Assembly: GCA_019775845.1 (NCBI GenBank)
Contig: JADQAV010000082.1
Location: 1 to 26,537 of the forward strand
Source: Myrmaecium sp. VS I D KN 1
Lineage: Eukaryota > Ascomycota > Dothideomycetes > Valsariales > Valsariaceae
DNA: 26,537 bases
Direction of reading: 5' to 3'
Position numbers and translations under genes: made by a program
Part shown: positions 3,707 to 23,021 of the stretch, one piece after another
How positions within the stretch are numbered: the stretch's first letter is position 1
Layout: each line of letters starts with the position of its first letter
The notes under the pieces: generated by a model
What the model was told of the DNA's origin: nothing
What the model saw: the letters and a program-made list of their open reading frames with translations, nothing else
Databases searched by the model: none

Positions 3707-5434
3707 TCACACCCCCCAATCCCACTCCACCCTCCCCATCCCACCTTCCGCCTCCCCATCCCACACCCTCTGCCCCCCTACCCACGTCCCCATCACCCCC
3801 GGCTTCCCCAACAACCCCTCCTCCGCCCCCCACTCCCACCCCACTGTCACAAAATCCGCCCGGAACCCTTTCTCCAACCGCCCCACCACCCCCTCCACCC
3901 CACAACTCCACGCCGCCCCCTCCGTCGTCGCCGCCAGCGCCTCCACCAACCCCAGCATCTCCCCCTCCCGCCCCGCCATCGGCGCCGTCACCCCGCCATC
4001 CCGCGCACTCCGCCCCGTCGTCGCCACATACAAATTCCCACCCACCTCCCACGGCGCCGTCGGCGCATCCGTGCCCAGCGCCAGCCGGGCGCCGGATCGC
4101 GCCAACGTCGCATAGGGAAACGCGGTGCTGCACCGCTGCGGCCCCAGGAGTCGCGGCCACGCGCCGAGGATCGCCGGGTCGCTGTGGACGGGCTGGATGC
4201 TGGCGATGCCGCCGAGCCGGGCGAGACGGGCCGCTTGCTCGGACGTGGCGAGCTCGAGGTGCTCGATACGGTGCCGGGGAGGAGGGGAGGAGGGGGAGGA
4301 GGGGGGCAGTGAGTCTAACGCCCCGAGCGCAACGTCGATAGCTGCGTCCCCGATGGCGTGCAACGCGACTTGCAACCCCGCGGCGTCGGCGGCCTGGACC
4401 ACGGGCGTGAGCGCCTCGAGCGGCCAGAGCAGGTTCGCCTCCCCCCCGCCCGCTTGGCCCGGGTCGTCGTGCGCGTATGGCTCCCGCACCGCCGCCGTGC
4501 AGGCATCCACCACCCCATCGCAGATCAACTTCACCCCCACGAGCCGCAGGTCCGGCGTACGCTCGAGGTTGTAGGCGCGATGCAGCTCCACGGCGCGCCG
4601 CACCTGCGCCAGGTTCTCCGCCTCCGTGGCCCGCGGGGTGACGAGCCAGTGCGCGGCGACGCGCAGGGGCAGCGGGCGTGCTGTCCGCTCGCGCAGGGCG
4701 ACGAGCGCCGCCCAGCTGCTTTCGTCCATCGCCATGTCGATCACGCCTGTGTAACCCGCGGAGAGGTAAGCTTCCATCGCAGCTCGCGCTGCGCCCACCT
4801 GCTCTTCCATCGTCGCCACGCGCGCCAGGTGCGGCCAGATGATGCGCACGGCTGCGGCTTCGGAGAGTAAGCCGGATGCTTTGCCTTCGGCGTCCCGGTG
4901 GATGCGTCCCCCTGGCGGGTCCGGCATGGCTTGCGCGCCGATCTCTGATAGTGCGGCGGAGGAACACCAGGTGGAGTGCAGGTCCTTAGAATCCACGTAG
5001 ATCGGGCGTCCAGCTGGATCCACGCCGTCCAACATCTCTGCCTCCGCTTTCCCGCCGGTCATCGCGTGCATCCACCCTTTCGCCATGATCCGTGGCGCGG
5101 CCGGGTGCGCGAGCGCGTACGCCCGCAGCGTGCACTGGATGTCGGCGAGCGTGCGGCATCCGCTGAGGTCGGCTTTGCGCAAAGACTGCCCGGTCATGAG
5201 CAGGTGCGTGTGGCTGTCGATGAAGCTGGGCAGCGTGAGGCGGTGGTGGAGGTCGTGGGTGTGGGCCCCGCCGCTCAGGGCGGATTGCGCGGTGGGGCTG
5301 GGGAGGGCGCCGATGTAGGTGATGGTCTCGCCGTGGTGGTCGACGATCATGCATTCGGCGAACTGGGGGGAGGAGGAGGTGGAGGAAGGCGGTTGGTAGA
5401 TGCGGCCGTTGTGGAAGATGGTGAGGTGGGACAT
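3707..5434 (-). CDS. YtcJ-type metal-dependent amidohydrolase
   Basis: The predicted protein has 575 residues and no intron. It belongs to the amidohydrolase superfamily (TIM barrel, amidohydrolase_3/YtcJ branch), which hydrolyses amide-type bonds; the substrate cannot be told. Visible metal and active-site motifs are DSHTH (H75, H77), the lysine of VKLICDG (K302, position of the usual carbamylated Lys), ALHAIGD (H359), RIEHLE (H392) and GTDAP (D456). The length fits the family. An ATG at 5824 in the same frame would add 130 residues, but that part is Pro/Ser/Thr/His-rich with no domain and looks like leader. The ATG at 5434 sits in a CACCCACC context right before the conserved first strand, so I chose it. 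There is no signal peptide, so it is likely cytosolic. Confidence 0.87.
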   Translation of the reverse strand: MSHLTIFHNGRIYQPPSSTSSSPQFAECMIVDHHGETITYIGALPSPTAQSALSGGAHTHDLHHRLTLPSFIDSHTHLLMTGQSLRKADLSGCRTLADIQCTLRAYALAHPAAPRIMAKGWMHAMTGGKAEAEMLDGVDPAGRPIYVDSKDLHSTWCSSAALSEIGAQAMPDPPGGRIHRDAEGKASGLLSEAAAVRIIWPHLARVATMEEQVGAARAAMEAYLSAGYTGVIDMAMDESSWAALVALRERTARPLPLRVAAHWLVTPRATEAENLAQVRRAVELHRAYNLERTPDLRLVGVKLICDGVVDACTAAVREPYAHDDPGQAGGGEANLLWPLEALTPVVQAADAAGLQVALHAIGDAAIDVALGALDSLPPSSPSSPPPRHRIEHLELATSEQAARLARLGGIASIQPVHSDPAILGAWPRLLGPQRCSTAFPYATLARSGARLALGTDAPTAPWEVGGNLYVATTGRSARDGGVTAPMAGREGEMLGLVEALAATTEGAAWSCGVEGVVGRLEKGFRADFVTVGWEWGAEEGLLGKPGVMGTWVGGQRVWDGEAEGGMGRVEWDWGV

Positions 5435-7452
5435 GGTGGGTGGTGAGGTGGTTGAGTGGTGGAGGGAGGGTGTTGTTTGGGTATGTATGTATTTGTGAAG
5501 AGGCGGAGGGGAAGACGGATCAGATAAAGAAGTACGTTGACGGGACGTTGACGGGACGGGTCGGGTCTGGACGAGAGCGATGTGAATGAAGAAAGCGGGG
5601 GAGGGGCCGGCGGGTTTGGAGAGCGGGGAGTCTGCAAAGGTGGGGGTTGCTCCTGCAGGATGGCCTGATACTCTCGATGGTGGGATCGCCTGGATTGTGA
5701 TCCTAGCCGGCGCAATCCTTACATATGTACGAGCCTCTCTACCTTCCATCGACCTGGATGAATATCCACCGCCCCATGCCGCTGGATGACGGGCTTTAGA
5801 TTCTGTATGATCGATTGAGAGCATCCCTTCTCCACCATGCCATATGCGCCAGCCCCCCCTGGGAACTCATGAAGCGAACGATTTATCCACTGGATCCGCC
5901 CATCCTTTAATGGCGAGTCAAAAAAAAAAAACGCTTTGCGATCTTCGCGTCACGGAATCTCTCCTCGAAGACGCCGTCTGACTGCTTTCCTAGACCGCTA
6001 CTGCTGGGCTGAAGGGGCGTGACTAATATCAGAGAAGCGCGAGCGATCCTTTTAAACTCGGAGGTTCCTCGAAAGGCGCTTTCATAACCAGGTAAATCTT
6101 CATCAACATGTGGGATTTGTTGGCGAGTAGCGCGGTTCTTACGGAGCGGACTTTCTGCAGGTGAGTGTGTTACTGCTTGGGTTGCTAGTCAAGTTCGTAT
6201 TCACGTCAATATGAGAAGGAGAGGAAGAAGTTGAAGAGGTGGGACCGGTGTGGCTGAACTCGGCTCAAATGGGGTCTTGCGGGCGGGAACAGGGGATAAG
6301 ACGGTTGATTGACACTGTGAATTTGCCCAAGAGTAGATCGAGTCTGCTTGTAAGTCCAAGTACTGCTTATGTGCTCCCTGACTTGCTATCTATATCGTTC
6401 TGCGGGTGGTTATATGATCCAAAAGATAGGACATCGAAAAAAGTCGCAGAAAAAGTCGTCTTCTCACCATTCATTTCCTTCACCAATTCATCTCGTCCTC
6501 TCCTCCTCCTCCGCCACATACAAGCGCGAACACAGCCTTACTGGTGGCGCATGCCGCGCCAGATGCGGAAACCCTCGAATAATCACATTGGTTAGTCTTC
6601 AGTTGCGCAGACGGGCCGTCAGATCTCTCGATCTCGCTTCGCCCGCCATCCACCAATCAACTCAGAGTGTGTCGCTGTCGTCCAGGCAAGGGTACATACG
6701 TGTAACGTGGCAGGTGGCTGCTTTGCAGGCGCAGCTGGCGCAGAGCAGCCCACGCAGAAGGCTGGATTCAGTTGACGTGCTGCGGAGAGGGAGGTCATGG
6801 TACTTATATGAGTGGACGTATGTACCTCCCTCCCCCAACGACGCATGTCGTGCTGCAGTATGGTCCGCCGACCACGTTACCGGGTCCAGGAAGAACAGAA
6901 AAACCGGATATCCGTTTATCGGACGTCTTGTTGTGAGGGATACCGTCCCGCGCTGCGGCGGCTTGAGAAGACGTGGTGGGCTTCGAGAGGACTATGAGGC
7001 GGTTTGACTGCGAAGGATGGATGATGGGCAGGACTGCTGGAGGCGAGGGAGATACACCACGCGATTCATACGCTTGGAACGTCTCTTTCCTTCATCCCTA
7101 AGGCTCCCCGGATGTACCGCATCGCTTTTCTAGCATTGCATCCCGCGTTTCGTCGCTGTACATATCTGTGAGTGAATCGAGCATCGGCAACTCCACGGAT
7201 GGGAGAGGCCACGAGGGACGCACTCGCTCTTTAGGAGCCCACGTCACGAAACGGCCCATAACAGCATTCTCTGCAGCTACATCTTCTCCATTGGCCCATT
7301 CTGGTCGTCCTGGACTGGTGCCATGGAAGACGTGCGGTTTTTCGAACAGAGATTGCGATGGCTGTATCACCTGCGATGGCGCTCATAAGGGAACGACCAG
7401 CGACGGAAGCCTCCGTCCTCCTTCTGCGGATACCTCCCTCAAGAGCATCACC
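5435..7452. other. 2-kb intergenic region, no supported gene
   Basis: It contains the 5' flanks of the minus-strand amidohydrolase and the plus-strand ankyrin pseudo-ATPase, so it should hold two divergent promoters. A run of 12 A lies near 5929-5940. A plus-strand open frame (6369-7007) reads as basic, unordered sequence without a family. A short ATG frame near 6109 runs into a GTGAGT donor-like site, but no convincing second exon follows. The frame of the downstream gene stays open back to 7168, but without an ATG before 7453. Confidence 0.45.
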
Positions 7453-9303
7453 ATGGCGGACGAAACGACCCTGGAACAGACCAACTGGACGCACAAGGAC
7501 TTCTGCGAGACCGACGCTTCCACCGCGTACAGCCTCACCTCACCCGGATATGCGTTTGTCCGGCTGCCCCGCGTCCGAGGCAGTCCCGGTGGGAAAGGAG
7601 TGATGGGACTGCGCCGGCTCTGCTGGGTCGTTCAGAAGTATGTCTCCTTCGAGGACATCCGCTTCCACGTGGAGGAGATCCTGCCCTCGACGACTCATCC
7701 ATCCCCCGAAGAACTCCAGATCTGGGCATCGGTTGCCATGTTCTTCGGTGTCGCGCGCAACTGCATTCAGACGGTCGACCTGCTCTTCTCCAAGGGCGTG
7801 GATCCGAACAAGTACACCTTCGATGGCGTCCCCCTCCTGGCCTTTGCCATTATGCATTCCCTAACTCACAAGACCAACACCACCGAGATCGTCCGGCGCA
7901 TCCTCCTCCACGGCGCCAACCCTTACAGAATCCCTCAGTACCTCTGGAAGGACTTCCTGCAACAGCCGGACCGCCTGACTAACCTACCTCTTCACCACAC
8001 CGCTCCCAAAGATCCGGGATGGGGCAGTGAAACGCCCATGCATCAGTGCACATACCGCATCGCCCTGGCGATGAGCCTTCATCTCTCTCAGCGACATCTG
8101 CTGAGCCAGGCATCCAAGGTCGTGACCACCAGCCAAACCATCGAGCTTCCCGGGAAGGCAGCGGACCTCATGGGGATCTTCAAGCTGCCGCTGTTCCTGG
8201 TGGGACAGGACTACGCGATCAAATGCGTAACAGAATGCATGCTCGAGTATGCCAAAACGCTTCAGTCCCGCAAGCTACCCATGTCGATCGTCTTCGCCGG
8301 GCCGGCGAGCCACGGCAAGCGCACGCTCACCTTCACGATGGCGCGACTGATGAAGCTGCCCCAGTTCACGGTCGACTGCACCAAGTCGGTGCACCCGTGG
8401 TACAAGCAGATGCTGAACCTGAACGAGTTCCTCGCCCACTGCGACGGCACCCCGGGCATCGTCTTGGTCGACCGGTTCGACCAGCTGGACGAGCACAAGC
8501 GCCGCACCATCCTGACCAAGCTCGAGCTCGGCACCTCCCACGACTTCCAGCGCAACACCCGCGTCGACATCTCCAAGACCATCTGGCTCTTCACCACCCA
8601 CGCCGTCGACGAGCTCATCGTCAAGTTCCACAAGCGCTTCCTCGTCGACGACGGCTCCCGCCGCTGGTCCGCCGAATCCGCCCCGGCTGCCGCCTCCCGC
8701 GGCCCCGACGTTCAGAATTCCTTCTGGCGCCAGTCCCAGCTCGTCGGCCTGCTGCGCGCCTCCCTCCTCGCCCTTCACACCGGCCCCCTCATCCTCCCCA
8801 CCGCAACCATCATCCCCTTCTTCCCCTTCTCCACCAGCGACACCGCTGTCCTCTTCCACAAATTCCTCCTCGAATGCTTCGACAGCATGCGCCTCCCATC
8901 ATCATCATCCCCCCTCCCCCCCACCAACGAGCCCGCCACCTCCCCACCGCCCTCCTCCTCCTCCTCCTCCTTCCTCGAACACAGCGCCATCTCCATCGCC
9001 AAAGACGGCACCTTCTGCAAAGTCCTGGCAAACCGCGTCTACAACGTGGCGGCGGGTGCGCAGTCCCTCCGCCACGGCGCCGAAGAGCTCCGCAACCCCA
9101 TCGCGGATTTCCTCTCAAAGGAGACTGAGGTGGATGATGGCTTTGAGGAGGACCTGAAGGGTCGCCACCACCGCTCCCCGATGGAGCCGAATACGGAGGT
9201 CGTGCATGAGTTCAGCGTGCATTTGGATTGCTCGTCCCAGGGCGCGTGGTTTTCGTCTGAGGGCGATACGTGGGTTTGTAAGGAGCCGCATCGGTGTGTT
9301 TAG
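7453..9303 (+). CDS. ankyrin + AAA+ (CLPB-like) pseudo-ATPase, intronless
   Basis: The predicted protein has 616 residues. An ankyrin-like region (about 95-165) precedes a single Clp/HSP100-type AAA+ module (about 245-550), as in animal CLPB/Skd3. It is collinear with the minus-strand paralog at 9583-11498. Nearly every catalytic element is changed. Walker A is GPASHGKR (K289 kept, R290 where Thr/Ser is needed). Walker B ends VDR (D340, R341 replaces the catalytic Glu). Sensor 1 Asn is H383. The Arg-finger position is P449. Sensor 2 GAR is GAQ (Q537). The pore-loop segment is about 11 residues shorter. A Pro/Ser-rich insert spans 480-507. The frame is open throughout, so a regulatory or scaffold role is more likely than ATPase activity. 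I chose ATG 7453 (ACCATGG context), the first ATG in frame. An upstream exon cannot be excluded. Confidence 0.83.
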   Translation: MADETTLEQTNWTHKDFCETDASTAYSLTSPGYAFVRLPRVRGSPGGKGVMGLRRLCWVVQKYVSFEDIRFHVEEILPSTTHPSPEELQIWASVAMFFGVARNCIQTVDLLFSKGVDPNKYTFDGVPLLAFAIMHSLTHKTNTTEIVRRILLHGANPYRIPQYLWKDFLQQPDRLTNLPLHHTAPKDPGWGSETPMHQCTYRIALAMSLHLSQRHLLSQASKVVTTSQTIELPGKAADLMGIFKLPLFLVGQDYAIKCVTECMLEYAKTLQSRKLPMSIVFAGPASHGKRTLTFTMARLMKLPQFTVDCTKSVHPWYKQMLNLNEFLAHCDGTPGIVLVDRFDQLDEHKRRTILTKLELGTSHDFQRNTRVDISKTIWLFTTHAVDELIVKFHKRFLVDDGSRRWSAESAPAAASRGPDVQNSFWRQSQLVGLLRASLLALHTGPLILPTATIIPFFPFSTSDTAVLFHKFLLECFDSMRLPSSSSPLPPTNEPATSPPPSSSSSSFLEHSAISIAKDGTFCKVLANRVYNVAAGAQSLRHGAEELRNPIADFLSKETEVDDGFEEDLKGRHHRSPMEPNTEVVHEFSVHLDCSSQGAWFSSEGDTWVCKEPHRCV

Positions 9304-9582
9304 GGGGTGGTTTGGGGGGTTCGTGGCTTTGCTTCTGTTCCAGTTTGCTCTTTTCCTTCTCTGCCCCTCTCTCTACAGGCATGTGGGGGGGTAGAGTTTC
9401 GTTATGGTGCAGCGTATTCCGTAAACTCCATGTTAGCATTCACATTTCCCTCCCACATCAGATTCGAGAAGACGCGTTAGGAAGCACACAAGTAGGCTTT
9501 TGAATCTCAATATCGACTCCCACGCTTTCATCTGCGGTGTGAAAGACCTCCACTCCCCCTCCGCAACTTCACCCTCCCCCCC
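9304..9582. other. convergent 3' flanks of the ankyrin-AAA+ pair
   Basis: This 279-bp spacer separates the stop codons of the two tail-to-tail paralogs. It must hold both 3' UTRs and polyadenylation regions, so the transcripts may overlap. No other feature is seen. Confidence 0.6.
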
Positions 9583-11498
9583 TCAATCCCACACCGGCAA
9601 GTCCACATCCTCCTCCCGAAACACCCTCACCACCTTCTCATCCCCCTCCGGCCTCACCTGCACCACGAACCGCATCACCCGCCGCTCCACCGTCTCCCCT
9701 CCTCCTCCCATCTCCCCCTCCGTCCGCAGATACAACGTCCGCAGCGGCCGCCCCACCTCCCCATGCACCGCCCGCTCCAGCGACCGCGCCCCGGTCTCGA
9801 CGTCGTACCCGCCGTCCTCCGCCAGCGTCCGGCACACCGCCCCGTCCTCCCGCACCTCCAGGAAGACCCCGCCCATCCGCAACGCCTCTCCGGGCTGCAT
9901 CGGTGGTCGCGCGGCCTCCGCCAGCGATCGCAGGCATTTGTGCGCCACGACGGCGGCTTCGGAGGTGCTGAAGGGGAGGAAGGGGATGATGGAGCCGAGG
10001 CGGCCGCCGAGGGGGATCTGGGGGGGTGGGTTTTGTTAGCTATATACTATGCTGCGTTTACCCTTGCTTAGGTTGTGGAGTGTACGTACGCCAAACTTCG
10101 CCTTGAACGCCTTGCGCATGTTCTTGTCTAGGGTTCTGAATGGTGCGGCGGCCTGCTCGGCCGCGGACTTCTTCTCTAGGTGTCGGCTGTAGAAGTCGAT
10201 GATCAGCGGGTCGACGAGGTTGGTTGCGAAGACCCAGGTCGTCTTGGTACAGTCGATGGCCGTCCCTTTTCGTCGATCGATGTATATACCTATTATGCTA
10301 AGTGAGTTAGGGATTCGTGTGAGCTTCTCCGGTTCGCATACCTTCGTCCAGCACTTTCAACAGCGTATCGTGCGCCTTACCCCCATCGCCCATCTTCTCG
10401 AACTCGTCCATAAAGACAATGGACCGCTGTCCCGAGTAGGACGCGAGAAAGTTGTTCAGAGGCGCACCGTTCTCCCATCCTTGGAACGGCTTCTTCGGCC
10501 CGAAGAGGTCGGTCTTGACCTCGATCTCGGTGCAGTCCACCACGTGCTGCGGGATCGACAGCAGCTTGCCCAAGCTCCGCGCCAGCTCGGTCTTGCCGTG
10601 GCCGCTGGGGCCGGCGAAGACCATGTTCAGCGGCCTTTCGCGCCCTTCGTCGCCGAGCAGGTGGCAGATGATCTCATCCTGCACCACCTGGACGGCGTGC
10701 TCCTGGCCGATGAGATACAACGGCAGGCCCAGCAAGCCCGTCATCTTCTTCTCCCGCGCCAGCTGCAACACCTTGACCGCCGGCCTCTCCATCTTGTCCG
10801 CGCGGTACAGCAGATACCGCTGCGTCAGCGTCAGGTTCCGCGCCAGCATCTCACGGCCCGCCTTCGGGTACACGTACGTCGGCTCGCAGCTCGCGGCTCT
10901 CTCGCCGGTGTCGGGCCTCGGCTGCTCCATGTACTCGTTCCACATGTCGGGCGGGATCACCTGCGGATCCGCCCCCAGCTCCAACAGCGTGCGCACCACT
11001 TCCGTCGTGTCGATACGCCGCTGCTCGCCGCAGCAGATGGCAAAGGTCAGCGCGTACCATACGCCCCCGCCCTGCCACTTCACGTCCGCTCCGACGTTGA
11101 CCAGCAGACGGATGAGCTCCGGGTCGTTGTACTCCACGGCGTAAAAGAGAGGCGGGTAGCCCTCCACGTCTTGGTTGATGAGACGCTGGACGTCACTCGC
11201 ATCGTATGAATCCACGTACTTCCGGATCTTGGCTTTCGGTACGGGCGGCTTCTTCTGCTGTAGTATGGCGCATAGCGTTCGGGGATCGAAGAGCTCCTTC
11301 CAAATGTAGAGGTCGACTGGCCGTCGATCGAGCAGGAGTGGAAGCCTTTTCACCATCGGCTAGACGGGTATCAGTTCGCATGTTTTTCCTGGGAGAAAAG
11401 CTTGTGGATCTTACCTCTGTCTCACTGGTCGTCGAAGCCATAGAGTTCTCACGGGAGTGCTTGGTGTGGCGGTGGCCTTTCTTCGTCGGCTTTTCCAT
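9583..11498 (-). CDS. ankyrin + AAA+ ATPase, CLPB/Skd3-like, four exons
   Basis: The spliced product has 578 residues. Exons are 11415-11498, 10342-11359, 10090-10289 and 9583-10017 (introns 55, 52 and 72 nt, all GT-AG with in-phase joins). A basic, Ser/Thr-rich N-terminus precedes ankyrin repeats at about 93-121 and 127-165. The Clp-type AAA+ module (about 245-525) has Walker A GPSGHGKT (278-285), a pore-loop-like PFQGW (319-323), Walker B VFMDE (343-347), sensor 1 ATN (N391), Arg-finger GGR (R440) and sensor 2 GAR (R512). The family unfolds or disaggregates proteins using ATP. Animal CLPB acts in mitochondria, but no clear targeting peptide is seen here. A TATAAAAT box lies on the minus strand at 11568-11575, 70 bp upstream. 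Its neighbour at 7453-9303 is a degenerate paralog in tail-to-tail orientation. Confidence 0.9.
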
Positions 11499-12507: not shown

Positions 12508-13702
12508 TTATACAGCCGTCCCCTCCGGCTTCCTCCCATAAACAAAATGAAAATTCACATAAAGATGGTTCCGCCGGTCCCGCAGCTCGCGCAGCACATT
12601 CGCAATCAGCACCCGACACTCCAACTCCGTCCACCCGAGCACCTTGCCGATGAAGCCGAGGGTGTAGGGTTCGATGCCGGCGCACGCGTGCTCCAGCTGG
12701 TACCGCCCGATCTGCTTGTACTTGGGGTCCTTGGGCCAGGGGCCGAGGGGGCACTGCGGGAGGGAGGGAGGGAGAGGATCGTTAGCTAGCTGGGGGGTGT
12801 TGGGGGTGAAGGGGGAAAGCCGGACGTACCTTATAAACGTCATCCCGCACATCAACGAAACCCGCATCGATCAACCGCTGCTTATGCGTCGCCGCAAGGT
12901 TAATCCGCTTCCCAAACGTATCGGCCGCCTCGTTGCACAGCGTCTGCCACTTGTTCGTCGCCTCCACCCTATCCTTCGTTTCGTCGTCGCTCGTGAACCA
13001 CGCCTCCGGCTCCTGCACCTCCACCCAGCCGCCCGGCCGTAAATGCTCGTAGCATCGTCGAAACAAACGGTCCCAATCCGCCACCGCCCCGCCCAGCCCC
13101 CGGCCGTGGATGAAGTCGAACGGCTCGTCGGCCCGGTACGGCCATTCCTCCTCGACGTCGTCGATGAAGAACTTGAGGTTCGGGGGCACCCAGCCGGGCT
13201 GCACGGGACTCAGGTCGTTGCCCAGGACTTCGGCGGACGGGAACTCGTCCGCGCAGTCGATCGCCCAGAGGCCCGTGCCGGTGCAGAGATCCAGGATTCG
13301 GGTGGGGGCCCGGTCGCGGCTGATGGGCGCGGCGTAGAGTTTGCCGTCGAGGAGGAGCAGGAAGATGTGGTGCAGGAGATCGAGGCGGTCTTGCTCGGCT
13401 TCGTCGTTGGGGAGCAGGTAGGCGCCTTTACGGTACCCATGGTAGCGTCGGCCGTTGGAGTACTCGTAGTCCACGATGGAGGAGGTGATGCTGGTGTAGC
13501 GTGATGAGGCGCCGTCCGAGTCGGCGTAGGCGCTGTCGTAGGCGTCGGCGTCTTCGGTTCCATCGGCGCCGGCGGTTGGGTCGGCTTCCAGCGAGGCGGT
13601 GGGCTGCGGGTGGACGTTTGTGAGCTGCTGCTGTTGCTGCGGCGGGGCTGCCGGCGTGCTCGCTGCCGCTGCTGTACTGGAGGGAGCTGGTTGCGCGCTC
13701 AT
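12508..13702 (-). CDS. SAM-dependent methyltransferase, LaeA-like
   Basis: Two exons (12830-13702 and 12508-12753) with a 76-nt GT-AG intron encode 372 residues. The N-terminal 65 residues are Ala/Pro/Gln-rich, including a Q run, and disordered. The class I methyltransferase core follows. The LaeA-type entry motif SSIVDYEYSNGRRYH (74-88) is present. SAM motif I is LDLCTGTGLWAID (137-149), followed by GNDLSPVQPGWVPPN (161-175) and a DDVE acidic motif. These are hallmarks of the large fungal LaeA/TAM-like family, which contains regulators and secondary-metabolite methyltransferases. Target unknown. The frame upstream of 13702 stays open, but its first codon is GTG, so the ATG at 13702 is the start. 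No biosynthetic core gene is nearby. Confidence 0.87.
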
Positions 13703-15396: not shown

Positions 15397-17069
15397 ATGT
15401 TGCAACTAATCCTTCTCCGAGCTATAGTCCTCTGCATTTTCAGCCGGCTTGCCTCCGCCGACATCATCACCCGCGCGGACTTAGACTACGGCAGCTTCCA
15501 AGGACGATACGATGCATCCTACAACATCACCTACTTCAGAAAGATCCCCTTCGGCGCCTCGACCGCAGGGGAGAACCGTTTCCGAGCCCCTCAACCACCG
15601 CCATCGGTCGGCAACGACACATACGACACCGACCAGGTCTTCGACATGTGCCCGCAACGCACCGTCAACGGCTCCGAGGACTGTCTGTACCTCGGGATCT
15701 ACTCGCGGCCTTGGAGCGACACCACCGTGAAGCGGCCAGTCCTGGTCGTCCTCTACGGCGGCGGCTTCATCCAAGGCAGCGCCAGCCTCTCCATCCCTCC
15801 CTCAGCCTATCCGGTACTAAACGTCAGCCAGTCGAACGACTTCGTGCTCGTGTACCCCAACTACCGCGTCAACGCCTTCGGCTTCCTCCCCGGAAAAGCC
15901 GTGCAGGACTCCCCCACGGCGGACCTCAACGTCGGCCTGCTCGACCAGCAGTTCGCGTTGCAATGGGTGCAGAAGTACATCGCCCACTTCGGCGGAGATC
16001 CCAGCAACGTGACGATCTGGGGCCAGTCAGCCGGCGGCGGATCGGTCGTGGCACAAGTCATCGCGAACGGCGGCCAAACCGCGCCCAAGCTGTTCACCAG
16101 AGCCCTCGCCAGCTCGCCCTACTGGCCCAAAACCTACCGCCACGATTCCCCCGAAGCAGAGGCCATCTACACCCAGCTCGTGAACCTCACCGGCTGCTCC
16201 CCCGCCGCGGACTCGCTCGCCTGCCTGAAGACCGTCGACGTCCAAGCCATCCGCGACGCCAGCCTCCGCATCAGTGCCTCCCACACCTACACCACCAGCT
16301 CCTACACCTGGGCCCCCGTCATCGACGGATCCTTCCTCAACCAATCCCTCACCGACGCCGTCCGCCTCGGCCGCGTCAACGCCGACGTCGGCTGGGGCAT
16401 GTACAATACGCACGAGGGCGAGAACTTCGTCCCCGCCGGCCTCGGCAACACGCCGGGCTCCGGCGGGTTCAATGCCACGGCCGCCGGGTTTGAGAATTGG
16501 CTCCAGGGTTTCTTGCCGAATCTGACCCGGTCGGATTGGGATGAGGTCGAGACGCTGTATCCGGCTAATGGCACGTTTGATGGGTTGACGGATTATGATA
16601 CGACCCGCACCCGTGCCGCGCTAATCTATCGTGATGTGGTGCTTGCTTGTCCTGCGTATTGGCTTGGCTGGACGGCGAAGGAAAGCGGGTATCTGGGGGA
16701 GTATACGATTAGTCCGGCGAAGCATGCTAGTGATACTATTTACGTGGGTCCCCCCCCTCTCCCCCTGGGGAGCAAAGTTGGGAATTAAATGCTTACTATT
16801 TTATGCCTCGGTAGTGGAATCAGGTGAATGCCGTGCAGAAGGAGCAGCCGTTGATCTACGAGGGCTTCGCCGGCGCGTTTGCGAGCTTCTTCCAGACTGG
16901 CGATCCGAATGCGCATAAGCTGACGGATGCCAGCGTGCCGGGCGTCCCGGAGATTGGGACGGGCGAGGAGTTTGTGATTGAGAGTGATGGGTTTGAGCAG
17001 CGGGATTTCGGCGTGCTGCGGGAGAGGTGTGCGTTCTGGGAGCGGGTGGGCTCGTTGGTACCCGTTTGA
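15397..17069 (+). CDS. secreted type-B carboxylesterase (alpha/beta-hydrolase)
   Basis: Two exons (15397-16743, 16815-17069) with a 71-nt intron (GTGGGT donor, GTAG acceptor) encode 533 residues, the usual length of the carboxylesterase/cholinesterase family. The signal peptide is about residues 1-21 (cleavage after ASA). The oxyanion-hole motif is YGGGF (120-124). The nucleophile elbow GQSAGGG has S211. The acid in NTHEGENF is E340 and the catalytic His in PAKHASD is H443. EDCLYL (95-100) and C85 give the conserved N-terminal disulphide. Several NxS/T sites fit an extracellular enzyme. It should hydrolyse carboxylic esters; the substrate is unknown. It is convergent with the UbiX-like gene, with only 76 bp between stops. 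Splicing joins TIY to WNQVN, restoring the family's conserved C-terminal segment. Confidence 0.9.
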
Positions 17070-17145: not shown

Positions 17146-17931
17146 TCATAAAACCTCCTGCCCCCCAACCTTCCTCTCCCTCTTCAACCCTCCCCACCTC
17201 TCAAACCCACCGCTCTCAAACCCCAACGCATCCACAATCCTCCCCACACTCTGATTCACAATATCCTCCACACTCGCCGGCCTCGTATAAAACGCCGGCA
17301 CCGGCGGAAAAATCACCACGCGCTGCCGCGCCAGCGCAAGCATGTTCTCCAGATGCACCACGCTCAGCGGCGTCTCGCGCACGACGAGCACGAGCCTCCG
17401 CTGCTCCTTCAACGCCACGTCCGCCGCCCGGCACACCAGGTCGTCCGCGAACCCCGTCCGCACCCCCGACAGCGTCCGCATGCTGCACGGCACGATCACC
17501 ATTCCGTCGATCGGGAAGCTGCCGCTGCTTATCGCGGCGCCGACGTCGCGGTTGGAGTACGTTTGCGTCGCGAGCCCGCGCACGTCTTTTACGGTGTAGG
17601 CGGTCTCGTATTGGATGGTTTCGGCGGCCCAGGTGCTGATCACAAGGTGCGTTTCGATTCCGAGCTCCTGTAGGACTTGGAGCAGCCGGATCCCTAGCAC
17701 CGCGCCGGTTGCCCCGGTCATCGCGACTACGATGCGTTTGGGACGTGGTGGGGACGGTAGGGTTGCTGTTGGTACTGCGGCCGTTGGGGGACCGGGTGGT
17801 GTTGCCACATCCCGGATGGGGGTGAATGCAGGCTTCGGGCGGATGGAACTCCCACGCCTGGGTTCGATGCGGAAGAAGAAAAGGAAGGCAACAATGCACG
17901 CGGCCAGAGTGATAAAGGCCGCGAGGAGCAT
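17146..17931 (-). CDS. UbiX/Pad1-like flavin prenyltransferase with N-terminal membrane segment
   Basis: The predicted protein has 261 residues and no intron. The UbiX family joins a dimethylallyl group to FMN, giving the prenylated FMN used by UbiD decarboxylases. Family motifs include VVAMTGATGAVLGIRLL (68-84), the SSGSF turn (135-139), IVPCSMRTLSGVRTGFADDL (146-165), RAADVALKE (168-176), LVVRETPLS (182-190) and FPPVPAFY (208-215). Unlike soluble UbiX, residues 1-22 are a hydrophobic helix followed by RIEPRRG and a Pro-rich linker to about 64, which suggests a membrane anchor or a targeting signal. An in-frame ATG at 18054 would give 302 residues; the frame further up begins with GTG. I prefer 17931 because it starts at the hydrophobic helix, but the choice is open. 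It is divergent from the UbiD-like gene it should serve. Confidence 0.85.
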   Translation of the reverse strand: MLLAAFITLAACIVAFLFFFRIEPRRGSSIRPKPAFTPIRDVATPPGPPTAAVPTATLPSPPRPKRIVVAMTGATGAVLGIRLLQVLQELGIETHLVISTWAAETIQYETAYTVKDVRGLATQTYSNRDVGAAISSGSFPIDGMVIVPCSMRTLSGVRTGFADDLVCRAADVALKEQRRLVLVVRETPLSVVHLENMLALARQRVVIFPPVPAFYTRPASVEDIVNQSVGRIVDALGFESGGFERWGGLKRERKVGGQEVL

Positions 17932-18284
17932 AATGATCGTGAACGGTAGCGAGTGCTGGTCAAAAGGGTGGGGGGGCAGCGGTATTTGAACGAGGCTGTC
18001 GAGCAGGGGCCGGCTGCGTCGGCAAGCTTCACGGACTCGCAGGATAATCACCATTACGTCTTTGTGGAACGGGAAGTTTGTGTGAGTGGAGAAGTCCACC
18101 TCGGCGGGCCGAAACTTGTTTTACGACTGGTTGGCACGGCTTCCGGCGTGCCCGGCAGATGCGAATGGTATGTATATATACCCGTGGAATGGCTCTCGAT
18201 TCACTTCACAATCACAATCACCATCACCTTCTCGCAGTTCCGCCCGCGCTCAGGCTCTATATCAAATTCCCCTCCACTTTCACA
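17932..18284. promoter_or_regulatory. shared promoter region of the UbiX-like and UbiD-like genes
   Basis: The two divergent start codons are 353 bp apart. TATATATA at 18173-18180 lies 105 bp before the UbiD-like ATG. An inverted repeat GGCACG/CGTGCC (18133-18138, 18147-18152, 8-nt spacer) and TCGG-N4-CCGA (18101-18112) could be regulator sites. The shared region suggests co-expression of cofactor-maker and cofactor-user. This is inference from layout. Confidence 0.5.
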
Positions 18285-19802
18285 ATGGCCTCCGCTTGCT
18301 CCGACTTCAGGCAGTTCGTCAAAGAACTCCAGGAAGAAGGCGATATCCAGGAGATCAACGAGGAAGTCGACCCCCATCTGGAAGTCGGGGCCATCATCAG
18401 ACGAGCCTGCGAGCTCCAAGCACCCGCACCCCTCTTCAACAACGTTCGGGGTCGGCAGGAAAACGGTCTCTACAGAATGCTGGGCGGCCCGGTCTCGCTG
18501 AGCGACCTCCAAGCACCTTACCGCCGCCTGGCGAAAAGCGTCGGCCTGCCTTCCACGGCTTCCGCCAAAGATCTCGTCGACCACCTGATCGAAGCAGAGA
18601 GCAAGCCACCGATCGAGCCGGTCGTCCTTCCCACTGGCCCCGTTAAGACGCACATCCTCACCGGCGACGATATCGACCTGGAAGCCCTCCCGGCGCCGCT
18701 GTTGCACAAGGACGACGGCGGCAAGTTCATCCAAACCCTGGGCATGTTCGTCGTCCAGAGCCCCGACGGCAAGTGGACGAACTGGTCGATCTCGCGGGCG
18801 ATGGTGCACGGCAAGCGCACGCTGGTCACCGTGGTGATGCCGCGGCAGGACCTAGGCACCATCTACCAGCTGTGGAAGGACATCGGGCAGGAGATGCCGT
18901 ACGCGCTCGTCTTCGGCGTGCCCCCAGCCGCGCTGATGGCGAGCGGGATGCCGCTCCCCAAGTGGACGAACGAAAACGGCTACATCGGCGCCCTCACCGG
19001 CCACGGCGTCGAGGTGACCAAGTGCACCACCAACGACCTGCTCGTGCCCGCCCACGCCGAAATCGTCTTCGAGGGCCGCGCCTCGATCACTGAGACCGCC
19101 CCGGAGGGCCCCATGGGCGAGTACCACGGCCTCGTCTTCCCCGGCGCCTCCCGGCCCGAGCCCGTCTTCCACGTCGACGCCATCACCTACCGCGACGATC
19201 CCATCCTGCCCGTCTGCGTCGCCGGCCGCGCGCCCGACGAGACACACACCCTCTGGGGCCTCGCCCAGTCCGTTGCGCTGCTGGCCGTATGCCGCAAGGC
19301 CGGCCTGCCCATCCGCACGGCCTGGTGCCCCCTCGCCGCTCAGTCCGGCTGGTTCGTCCTCCAGGTGGACCGGCCGCAGCTGCTCGCTCTCCGCACCACC
19401 CGCGACGCCTTCTGCCGCCGCCTAGCCGAGGTCGTCTTCACCGACAAGAAGGTCGGCTGGTACATCCCCAAGCTGCTCCTCGTCAGCGAGGACGTCGACC
19501 CCTCCAGCCTCGCCGACGTCGTCTGGGCCGAGTCCGTCTTCTGCGAGCCCGGCGAGGGCGCCGGCACCGCCGAGTTCTTCTTCCGCGGCCCTGATACGAT
19601 TGGTCTCATGCCCTATGTTTCCCATGGCGGCGCCGCTGCCCAAGGTCGACCGGTCGCCAAGGTCCTCCGCTGCTGCATGCTGCCCCAGGAGTTTACCGAC
19701 GAGAAGCTGCCTTGGGTCCAGGCCTCGTTCAAGCACTCCTACCCGCCAGAGGTCCAGGAGAAGGTCTTGCGCAACTGGGAGAAGTATGGATATAAAAAGT
19801 GA
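18285..19802 (+). CDS. UbiD-family decarboxylase, Fdc1-like
   Basis: The predicted protein has 505 residues and no intron, close to yeast Fdc1 (503). The family uses prenylated FMN to decarboxylate cinnamic-, sorbic- or aromatic-type acids reversibly. Expected residues are NWSISRAM (166-173) with metal-ligand N166 and R171 of the E-R-E triad, E230 (metal ligand), and EGPMGE (274-279) with E274 and E279. PDETHTL (339-345) and the C-terminal NWEKYGYK are conserved. Where Fdc1 has the metal-ligand His of PQH, this protein has RQD (D189) by eye alignment, so its substrate range may differ from true Fdc1. ATG 18285 starts right at the conserved N-terminus. The open frame further upstream is in the TATA-bearing promoter and begins 18078 without a good start. 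Partner: the divergent UbiX-like gene. Confidence 0.92.
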   Translation: MASACSDFRQFVKELQEEGDIQEINEEVDPHLEVGAIIRRACELQAPAPLFNNVRGRQENGLYRMLGGPVSLSDLQAPYRRLAKSVGLPSTASAKDLVDHLIEAESKPPIEPVVLPTGPVKTHILTGDDIDLEALPAPLLHKDDGGKFIQTLGMFVVQSPDGKWTNWSISRAMVHGKRTLVTVVMPRQDLGTIYQLWKDIGQEMPYALVFGVPPAALMASGMPLPKWTNENGYIGALTGHGVEVTKCTTNDLLVPAHAEIVFEGRASITETAPEGPMGEYHGLVFPGASRPEPVFHVDAITYRDDPILPVCVAGRAPDETHTLWGLAQSVALLAVCRKAGLPIRTAWCPLAAQSGWFVLQVDRPQLLALRTTRDAFCRRLAEVVFTDKKVGWYIPKLLLVSEDVDPSSLADVVWAESVFCEPGEGAGTAEFFFRGPDTIGLMPYVSHGGAAAQGRPVAKVLRCCMLPQEFTDEKLPWVQASFKHSYPPEVQEKVLRNWEKYGYKK

Positions 19803-21689: not shown

Positions 21690-23021
21690 ATGTCAGACAC
21701 CGAAAAGAAACTCCACCTCACCGCATTCATGCGGCCGGTGAGCCTGCACACAGGCGCATGGAGATACCCGGGCGCTTACCCAGATGCCAACTTCAACCTC
21801 ACGCACCTGCAGTCTTTCATCAAAAAGCTGGAAGCAGCCAAGTTTGATGCTTTCTTCATGGCCGATCACCTCGCCGTATTGAATATGCCCGTTGAGGCGC
21901 TCAAACGCTCCCACACCGTTACTTCCTTTGAACCCTTCACGCTGCTGTCCGCCCTCTCCGCCGTGACGAGTAAGATCGGGCTCGCGGCGACAGCATCAAC
22001 CACCTACGAGGCCCCATACCACATCGCTCGCCGCTTCGCCTCGCTCGACCACCTCAGCGGCGGCCGCGCCGCCTGGAACATCGTCACCACCGGCAACCCG
22101 GAGTCCTCCAAGAACTTCGGCCTGGACGAGCACATGGAGCACGAACAGCGGTACCGGCGCGCGCGCGAGTTCTACGACGTCGTCACGGGTCTGTGGGACA
22201 GCTTCGCCGACGACGCCTTCATCCGGGACCAGGCGAGCGGCATCTATGTCGACCCGGCCAAGATGCACGTTCTGAACCACGAGGGCGAGTTCCTGCGCGT
22301 GCGCGGCCCGCTGAACATCGCTCGCCCGGTTCAGGGCTGGCCCGTCATTGTTCAGGCCGGCCAGTCTGAGCCAGGGAGACAGTTGGCTGCTGAGACGGCG
22401 GAGGCGGTCTTCTGCTCACCCAGCGACCTGGCCGCGGCTAAGGCGTTGTATGCGGACATCAAAGGCCGCGCGGTAGCGGCGGGCCGTCAGCGGCACCATA
22501 TCAAGATCCTCCCGGCGGCCTTCGTCGTCGTCGGGGACAGCTACGAGGATGCCCAGGCGAAACGTCTCAAGCTCGACAGCCTTGTGCACTATGATAGTGC
22601 CATCGCGTCGCTCTCCGTGGTGCTGGGAACGGATGCGTCGAAGCTTGATCCGGACGGGCTTCTACCCACGGAGCTACCGGAGACGAACGGAACGAAAACC
22701 GCCCGGGAGGCTGCTCTGAAGCTGGCTCGGGAGGAGAAGCTCACGGTGCGGCAGCTGGCGCAGCGCTATGGTGGATATGCTGGGCTGGCTTTTGTCGGAT
22801 CGCCGCAGCAGATTGCGGATGAGATGCAACAGTGGTTGGAGGAAGAAGGGGCGGACGGGTTCACGGTGGTGTTTCCATTCCTACCGCAGGGTCTGGACGA
22901 GGTAGTCGAGAGGTTGATCCCAGAGTTGCAGAAGCGTGGATTGTTTCGCCAGGAGTACGAGGGAGCGACTTTGCGTGAGCATTTGGGCTTGCCTCTACCG
23001 AAGAACCGTTTCTTCGAGTAG
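21690..23021 (+). CDS. FMN-dependent monooxygenase, NtaA/SnaA/DszA (luciferase-like) family
   Basis: The predicted protein has 443 residues and no intron; the start context is ACAAAAATGTC. It is a two-component flavin monooxygenase of the bacterial-luciferase superfamily, NtaA/SnaA/SoxA/DszA group. These enzymes use FMNH2 from a separate reductase to oxidise substrates such as aminopolycarboxylates, alkyl sulphur compounds or heterocycles. Typical motifs are AWRYPG (19-24), KFDAFFMADH (51-60), EPFTLLSALSAVTSKIGL (76-93), GLAATASTTYEAPYHIARR (92-110), SLDHLSGGRAAWNIVTT (112-128), NFGLD (136-140), IVQAGQSEPGR (219-229) and, near the end, GFVG-like AFVGSP. Substrate unknown. The family is mainly bacterial and the gene is intronless, so ancient horizontal transfer is possible. 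It is convergent with the Zn2Cys6 regulator (147 bp apart). Confidence 0.91.
   Translation: MSDTEKKLHLTAFMRPVSLHTGAWRYPGAYPDANFNLTHLQSFIKKLEAAKFDAFFMADHLAVLNMPVEALKRSHTVTSFEPFTLLSALSAVTSKIGLAATASTTYEAPYHIARRFASLDHLSGGRAAWNIVTTGNPESSKNFGLDEHMEHEQRYRRAREFYDVVTGLWDSFADDAFIRDQASGIYVDPAKMHVLNHEGEFLRVRGPLNIARPVQGWPVIVQAGQSEPGRQLAAETAEAVFCSPSDLAAAKALYADIKGRAVAAGRQRHHIKILPAAFVVVGDSYEDAQAKRLKLDSLVHYDSAIASLSVVLGTDASKLDPDGLLPTELPETNGTKTAREAALKLAREEKLTVRQLAQRYGGYAGLAFVGSPQQIADEMQQWLEEEGADGFTVVFPFLPQGLDEVVERLIPELQKRGLFRQEYEGATLREHLGLPLPKNRFFE

Follow-up and report, generated by a model that had tools for sequence, protein, structure and literature searches.

Has a fungus kept an ankyrin-Clp protein with an altered ATP pocket beside its intact paralogue, and if so, for what use? 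The question is raised by two genes on a contig of Myrmaecium sp. VS I D KN 1 (GenBank JADQAV010000082.1), of which we analysed a stretch of 26,537 nucleotides, hereafter the window. The genes are tail-to-tail neighbours on opposite strands and both are of the ankyrin-Clp type; we refer to the intact copy as ACT and to the putative pseudo-ATPase as PS. Our best explanation is that both genes descend from one Skd3/CLPB-like ankyrin-Clp gene through an old tail-to-tail duplication; PS would be a maintained pseudo-ATPase of that family. To this explanation as a whole, including the role proposed for PS below, we assign a joint probability of about 0.4.

The two genes are convergent homologues

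The layout of the pair is as follows.

7453-9303, plus strand: PS, putative ankyrin-Clp pseudo-ATPase; single open frame of 616 codons, from the open reading frame (ORF) call, BLASTP to ACT and GC content at third codon positions (GC3)
11498-9583, minus strand: ACT, intact ankyrin-Clp ATPase; 578 codons in four exons, with Pfam domains above the curated cut-offs
11498-11415, 11359-10342, 10289-10090 and 10017-9583, minus strand: exons of ACT, by predicted splicing
9304-9582: spacer of 279 bp separating the two convergent stop codons

A first-pass annotation, made by a model from the sequence and a list of open frames, had placed the pair at these positions and reported the 616-codon frame of PS, which the ORF call returned unchanged. 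Splicing of ACT was predicted from frame continuity, splice signals and homology, and gave three GT-AG introns of 55, 52 and 72 nt. At the positions that correspond to ACT introns 2 and 3, the PS frame continues in alignment with ACT; no intron is therefore needed in PS, and a hidden one was rejected. The start codon of PS lies in a strong context (CACCATGGC). A second frame within PS (8223-9128, plus strand) is open for 301 codons, probably as an effect of the high GC3.

BLASTP of PS against ACT gave an E-value of 3e-54 with 142 identical columns of 487, far above chance, so the proposal that the two proteins are homologous along their length held. In a global alignment, 175 of 534 aligned residues were identical (33%), and identity extended through all parts: 53/180 in the N-terminal and ankyrin part, 78/231 in the linker and large part of the AAA+ module, and 44/123 in the C-terminal part. 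Within identical residues, 69 of 108 fourfold degenerate sites differ (0.64, where 0.673 is expected at saturation). Because these synonymous sites are saturated, the duplication is old. A pairwise ratio of nonsynonymous to synonymous substitution rates (dN/dS) was rejected as meaningless for the same reason.

Both genes (7453-11498) have third positions that are C-rich on the plus strand despite their opposite orientation. At the 108 shared fourfold sites, read on each gene's own coding strand, C stands at 67 in PS and G at 60 in ACT, and the GC skew is -0.31 at 8001-9000, a regional strand asymmetry.

Five of six ATP pocket residues are changed in PS

The pocket was defined by six residues: the Walker A Lys and Thr, the Walker B Glu, the sensor 1 Asn, the arginine finger Arg and the sensor 2 Arg. 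They were taken from a paper on the CLPB structure (PMC9934407) and are present in all 11 of the aligned non-redundant ClpB domains. The corresponding codons in the two genes, together with two further regions of PS, are these.

8320-8322, plus strand: PS Walker A, Thr to Arg (GPASHGKR; Lys kept)
8473-8475, plus strand: PS Walker B, Glu to Arg (VDRF; Asp kept)
8599-8601, plus strand: PS sensor 1, Asn to His (FTTH)
8797-8799, plus strand: PS arginine finger, Arg to Pro (LILPTATII, against LGGRLGSII)
9061-9063, plus strand: PS sensor 2, Arg to Gln (GAQSL)
7738-7932, plus strand: PS ankyrin-like region, degenerate, at about residues 96-160; aligned to the ACT ankyrins, Pfam Ank_4 at 15.5 bits against a cut-off of 22.7
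8893-8976 (approximate), plus strand: PS low-complexity insert rich in Ser and Pro, in the C-terminal part; ACT lacks most of it
10961-11191, minus strand: ACT ankyrin repeats, residues 85-161 (Pfam Ank_2, Ank_3 and Ank)
10589-10594, minus strand: ACT Walker A, Lys284-Thr285
10403-10405, minus strand: ACT Walker B, Glu347
10219-10221, minus strand: ACT sensor 1, Asn391
10000-10002, minus strand: ACT arginine finger, Arg440
9784-9786, minus strand: ACT sensor 2, Arg512

The first-pass annotation had already named five of the six pocket sites, and the alignment placed each of the five changes that it claimed for PS at the codons given here. PS retains one of the six pocket residues, the Walker A Lys, and judging by its sequence it should not hydrolyse ATP. 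It also lacks 11 residues directly ahead of pore loop 1, a loss that had been missed. Pore loop 1 itself reads VHPWY in PS, PFQGW in ACT and GYVGY in ClpB. A ClpB profile matched PS with an E-value of 4.9e-5 and a probability of 68.

The pocket of ACT is complete, with all six of the CLPB/ClpB residues. The protein had been credited with every Clp-type motif; this was correct for the pocket and did not extend to pore loop 1, where PFQG replaces GYVG, with the aromatic residue retained as Phe and different flanking residues. ACT scored above the Pfam cut-offs for Ank_2, Ank_3, Ank, AAA_2, AAA, AAA_5 and ClpB_D2-small (E-values of 4.3e-10 for AAA_2, 3.4e-6 for Ank_2 and 5.7e-5 for ClpB_D2-small). 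Its domain order, ankyrin repeats followed by a single AAA+ module of the Clp nucleotide-binding domain 2 (NBD2) type and a D2-small domain, is that of CLPB/Skd3. Pfam detected ankyrin repeats at residues 85-161 only, not the four repeats of CLPB, and diverged repeats are possible. A CLPB-type N-terminal hydrophobic stretch was not found in ACT, whose highest 19-residue hydropathy is 1.36, at residue 441.

When ACT alone was searched against the PDB, ClpB came first (1.2e-15), followed by ClpA, ClpC1 and CLPB (3e-11 to 8e-11, with CLPB at 8e-11). With a joint profile of ACT and PS, CLPB/Skd3 chains came first (3.1e-18) and ClpB next (3e-15). The main ACT exon, searched against plasmids, matched 38 records; the 10 listed had 26.1-34.5% identity, and 7 of these were annotated as Clp, ClpB or TssH and 3 were unannotated. 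A longer stretch after sensor 1 was considered as a CLPB hallmark and dropped, as several ClpB domains from viral contigs are close to ACT in length there. We describe ACT as Skd3-like and do not claim full membership of CLPB/Skd3. In our reading ACT is the working ATPase of the pair. It very probably assembles as a ring that acts on client proteins by threading or remodelling, and its ankyrin part, from what is known of CLPB, may be used for assembly or client choice.

Indirect evidence that PS is probably maintained

All evidence on selection comes from this one genome. GC3 is 0.83 in PS and 0.85 in ACT, compared to 0.755-0.868 in six other window genes (with approximate frames) and an average of 0.515 in seven intergenic stretches, and in all four quarters of PS it lies at 0.77-0.96. 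The synonymous codon score of PS (-0.945) is within the range of the other window genes (-1.165 to -0.886) and about 16 standard deviations (s.d.) from a null in which synonymous codons follow intergenic composition (-1.52, s.d. 0.035). The hydrophobic core points the same way: of the 86 columns with hydrophobic residues in ClpB, 65 are also hydrophobic in PS, as against 44 of the 152 polar ones (p 2.5e-12), and the counts for ACT are 66/86 and 32/152.

Neutral decay was simulated starting from ACT, with an assumed 0.1 indels per substitution or with none. At 1%, 2% and 5% divergence, the fraction of runs whose frame stayed intact was 0.18, 0.04 and 0.0007 with indels and 0.57, 0.31 and 0.053 without them. 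Under both settings, an intact frame with at least five pocket changes was seen in 0 of 3000 runs at every one of the six divergences simulated up to 10%, in 0 of 600 at 20% and in 0 of 600 at 40%. Because no neutral run combined the two, the pocket losses appear to have accrued while the frame was kept.

The first-pass annotation had reasoned that random decay should have brought stop codons as well. The reasoning was right, but openness alone says little, because the region is GC-rich and another frame on the same strand is open for 301 codons. It is codon bias, core hydrophobicity and the simulation that carry the argument, and together they support its view that PS is not a product of random decay but a catalytically degenerate paralogue that has been kept open. 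A long period of free drift is not likely. These analyses suggest that PS is very likely a functional protein, selected for something other than ATP hydrolysis.

PS had no sign of repeat-induced point mutation (RIP), with TpA/ApT at 0.28 and the second index at 1.24. In the 800 bases upstream of PS there was no heat-shock element (allowing up to two mismatches), stress-response element (STRE) or TATA box. Upstream of ACT, one heat-shock element with two mismatches was matched, where shuffles gave 1.5 and 1.9. Heat-shock elements were rejected as a feature of the pair.

PS is predicted to keep an AAA+ fold

An AlphaFold2 model built from the two window proteins alone had a predicted local distance difference test score (pLDDT) of 39 and was not used. 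A second model, of PS residues 201-616, drew on helper sequences: ACT and 15 viral-contig ClpB domains. It had a mean pLDDT of 61 and a predicted template modelling score (pTM) of 0.63; 203 of the 416 residues were at a pLDDT of at least 70, and ten-residue blocks of the AAA+ core mostly averaged 74-89. When the model was compared with the PDB by Foldseek, the ten best matches were all Skd3/CLPB, with no CLPB in the alignment. The best of them, Skd3 (human CLPB), had an E-value of 2.2e-13, a template modelling (TM) score of 0.53 by query length and a root-mean-square deviation (rmsd) of 8.8 A. The model is support and not proof, because the helper sequences steer the fold. It suggests that PS very probably keeps the AAA+ fold; the small domain behind this fold and the ankyrin-like N-terminus also appear to be kept.

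How PS may act, and what else it could be

Subunits of AAA+ rings contribute an arginine finger that completes the active site of their neighbour. A PS subunit within an ACT ring would lack a site of its own and would also spoil that of its neighbour, with no arginine finger at the usual place. Since one PS subunit would thus silence two sites, we tentatively propose that PS may join or dock on ACT rings and turn them down. The first-pass annotation had suggested an inactive subunit that would join, cap or inhibit the active hexamer, or whose ankyrin part might serve as a sensor.

Several observations weigh against a maintained pseudo-ATPase that regulates ACT in this way. Taken alone, PS falls under every Pfam cut-off (AAA at 15.9 bits against 21.2), and among Clp entries of the PDB it matches ClpX best, with an E-value of 0.065. 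Its model reached a pLDDT of only 39 when ClpB relatives were left out of the alignment, and their inclusion pushes it toward the ClpB fold. The Foldseek superpositions are loose, with an rmsd of 5.7-13.9 A among the 50 matches listed and TM scores of about 0.5 by query length. The pocket residues were not significantly more prone to loss than others: 1 of 6 was kept compared to 26 of 52 elsewhere, the 52 being the non-pocket positions at which ACT matches the ClpB consensus (Fisher p 0.13). With the pocket included, 31 conserved ClpB columns were lost in PS alone and 14 in ACT alone (p 0.016); without the five pocket columns the difference, 26 against 14, was not significant (p 0.08). Of the 59 invariant ClpB columns, ACT keeps 29 and PS 19. 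Given this excess of losses in PS, its sequence has likely undergone some relaxation. Furthermore, the two proteins share 33% identity, and their ring interface may no longer be similar enough to allow mixed rings.

Such divergence would also suit a pseudo-ATPase that works alone. PS would then be an ankyrin-bearing adaptor or scaffold that makes no contact with ACT and uses its dead AAA+ domain only for binding clients or partners. Retention of the fold pattern and the frame without the catalytic residues would be expected of such a protein, as would the loss of the arginine finger and of the stretch ahead of pore loop 1. PS still adjoins its active paralogue despite the old duplication, which is mild evidence of a shared role, but this point is weakened by the fact that adjacency can be plain inheritance. 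We regard a stand-alone scaffold, itself a tentative reading, as being as likely as a mixed-ring regulator.

Alternatively, PS could have lost catalysis under constraint and then become a pseudogene too recently to have gained stops or frameshifts. The simulation permits an intact frame over the first 1-2% of divergence, the excess of conserved-column losses with the pocket included (31 against 14) would suit this history, and so would the lack of the three promoter elements sought in the 800 bases upstream. However, this history still requires an earlier phase in which a non-catalytic PS was maintained, and the strong start context and the GC3 of 0.77-0.96 in every quarter argue against recent decay; we consider it improbable.

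An activating role is more doubtful still. In the manner of LAP1/LULL1 and torsin, PS would be a nucleotide-free protein of AAA+ fold that completes the active site of ACT, and LAP1, whose AAA+ fold is degenerate, is reported to partner an active ATPase of the AAA+ class (PMC4358337). LAP1-type activation is disfavoured because LAP1 relies on a finger-placed arginine that PS lacks, with Pro at this place (8797-8799), although an arginine elsewhere in PS could serve.

Least probable, and strongly disfavoured, is an ordinary pseudogene in neutral decay whose frame is open by chance: the five changed pocket residues, the 11 lost residues, the GC-rich region that makes stops rarer and the overlapping open frame of 301 codons would suit it, but the codon score about 16 s.d. 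from the intergenic null, a core hydrophobicity that nearly matches that of ACT, the absence of a RIP sign and the failure of every simulated neutral run to reproduce the combination speak against it.

Neighbouring genes in the window

Outside the pair, a UbiX-like gene and a UbiD decarboxylase gene lie in divergent frames 104 bp apart, and we take them to be a PAD1/FDC1-type pair. They are flanked by three genes that could form a catabolic gene group with them. The monooxygenase among these is presumably of the NtaA type. A methyltransferase gene lies nearer to ACT, and its product resembles the LaeA-like methyltransferases of filamentous fungi.

17146-18054, minus strand: UbiX-like (Flavoprotein, Pfam 5.9e-43)
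18159-19802, plus strand: UbiD decarboxylase (Pfam UbiD, 4.8e-64)
3707-5824, minus strand: Amidohydro_3 protein
15397-16788, plus strand: carboxylesterase
21690-23021, plus strand: Bac_luciferase-family monooxygenase
12782-13702, minus strand: methyltransferase (Methyltransf_23, 5.9e-20)

Comparison with known systems

The closest known counterpart of ACT is CLPB/Skd3 (ANKCLP), the mitochondrial disaggregase of animals and choanoflagellates, which has the same order of ankyrins, AAA+ module and D2-small domain. Among CLPB-like details, ACT has FLPF after the arginine finger (FFPF in PS) and GARS at sensor 2 (GAQS in PS), the counterparts in Thermus thermophilus ClpB being FRPL and GARP. ACT differs from CLPB in that its recognisable ankyrin region is shorter, it lacks a strongly hydrophobic stretch and its pore loop is PFQG; searched on its own, it is matched better by bacterial ClpB (1.2e-15) than by CLPB (8e-11).

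Two papers place the ankyrin-Clp fusion in Holozoa, that is, in animals and choanoflagellates (PMC4339202, PMC7343390). In fungi, a survey of NOD-like receptors (NLRs) mentions, as an exclusion, the Sordariales orthogroup OG0007227, which has ankyrin repeats N-terminal to AAA and hits to ClpB_D2-small, UBA_4 and Clr5 (PMC12258605). Its domain order, compared by description only, is the same as that of ACT, and the fungal ankyrin-Clp architecture is thus already seen in that survey. Among the literature matches listed (titles and abstract starts, with few subscription papers covered), we found no fungal active/inactive ankyrin-Clp pair and no functional study of a fungal ankyrin-Clp protein. 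Pattern searches gave 4 matches in IMG/VR with ACT and 1 with PS, and in GTDB genomes 44 with an alignment (A1) and 35 with ACT. None was a relative, which says nothing about fungi because these are viral and prokaryote collections. A wider proposal, which we hold to be rather unlikely, is that filamentous fungi have a stable two-gene module in which a PS-type subunit in or capping a Skd3-like ring sets its activity, and that the fusion predates Holozoa or moved between opisthokont lineages. If true, this would raise again the question of where the fusion first arose, which published work places in choanoflagellates.

That AAA+ machines can have inactive partners is already established; the literature matches listed contained no description of this gene pair. 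The FtsHi pseudo-proteases of chloroplasts are reportedly inactive AAA+ paralogues kept beside active ones, as PS is. They are pseudo-proteases by title, whereas the change in PS concerns the ATPase pocket. LAP1 and LULL1 offer a second likeness in that an AAA+-fold protein without nucleotide-binding motifs is reported to be paired with an active AAA+ protein, torsin, as PS is with ACT. LAP1 is not known to carry ankyrin repeats. It is reported to have a strictly conserved arginine positioned as an arginine finger (PMC4358337). It keeps the finger and activates; the finger of PS is lost.

The nearest parallel to the role proposed for PS comes from dominant variants of human CLPB. One study (PMC11975511) reports that seven of these, including N496K, R561G and R620C, reduce wild-type disaggregase activity in mixed oligomers, and that K404T, P427L and G560R, the three examined, still form hexamers or dodecamers. 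N496K, R561G/Q and R620C lie, when matched by motif, at sensor 1, the arginine finger and sensor 2, and all three sites are altered in PS. The human variants are single disease changes, whereas PS is a separate gene that has all three together with changes in Walker A, Walker B and the region of the pore loop. If PS regulates ACT, it would provide a genetic handle on a fungal protein machine, and it would be a natural counterpart of the human CLPB disease variants, with an inactive subunit lowering the activity of an ankyrin-Clp ring.

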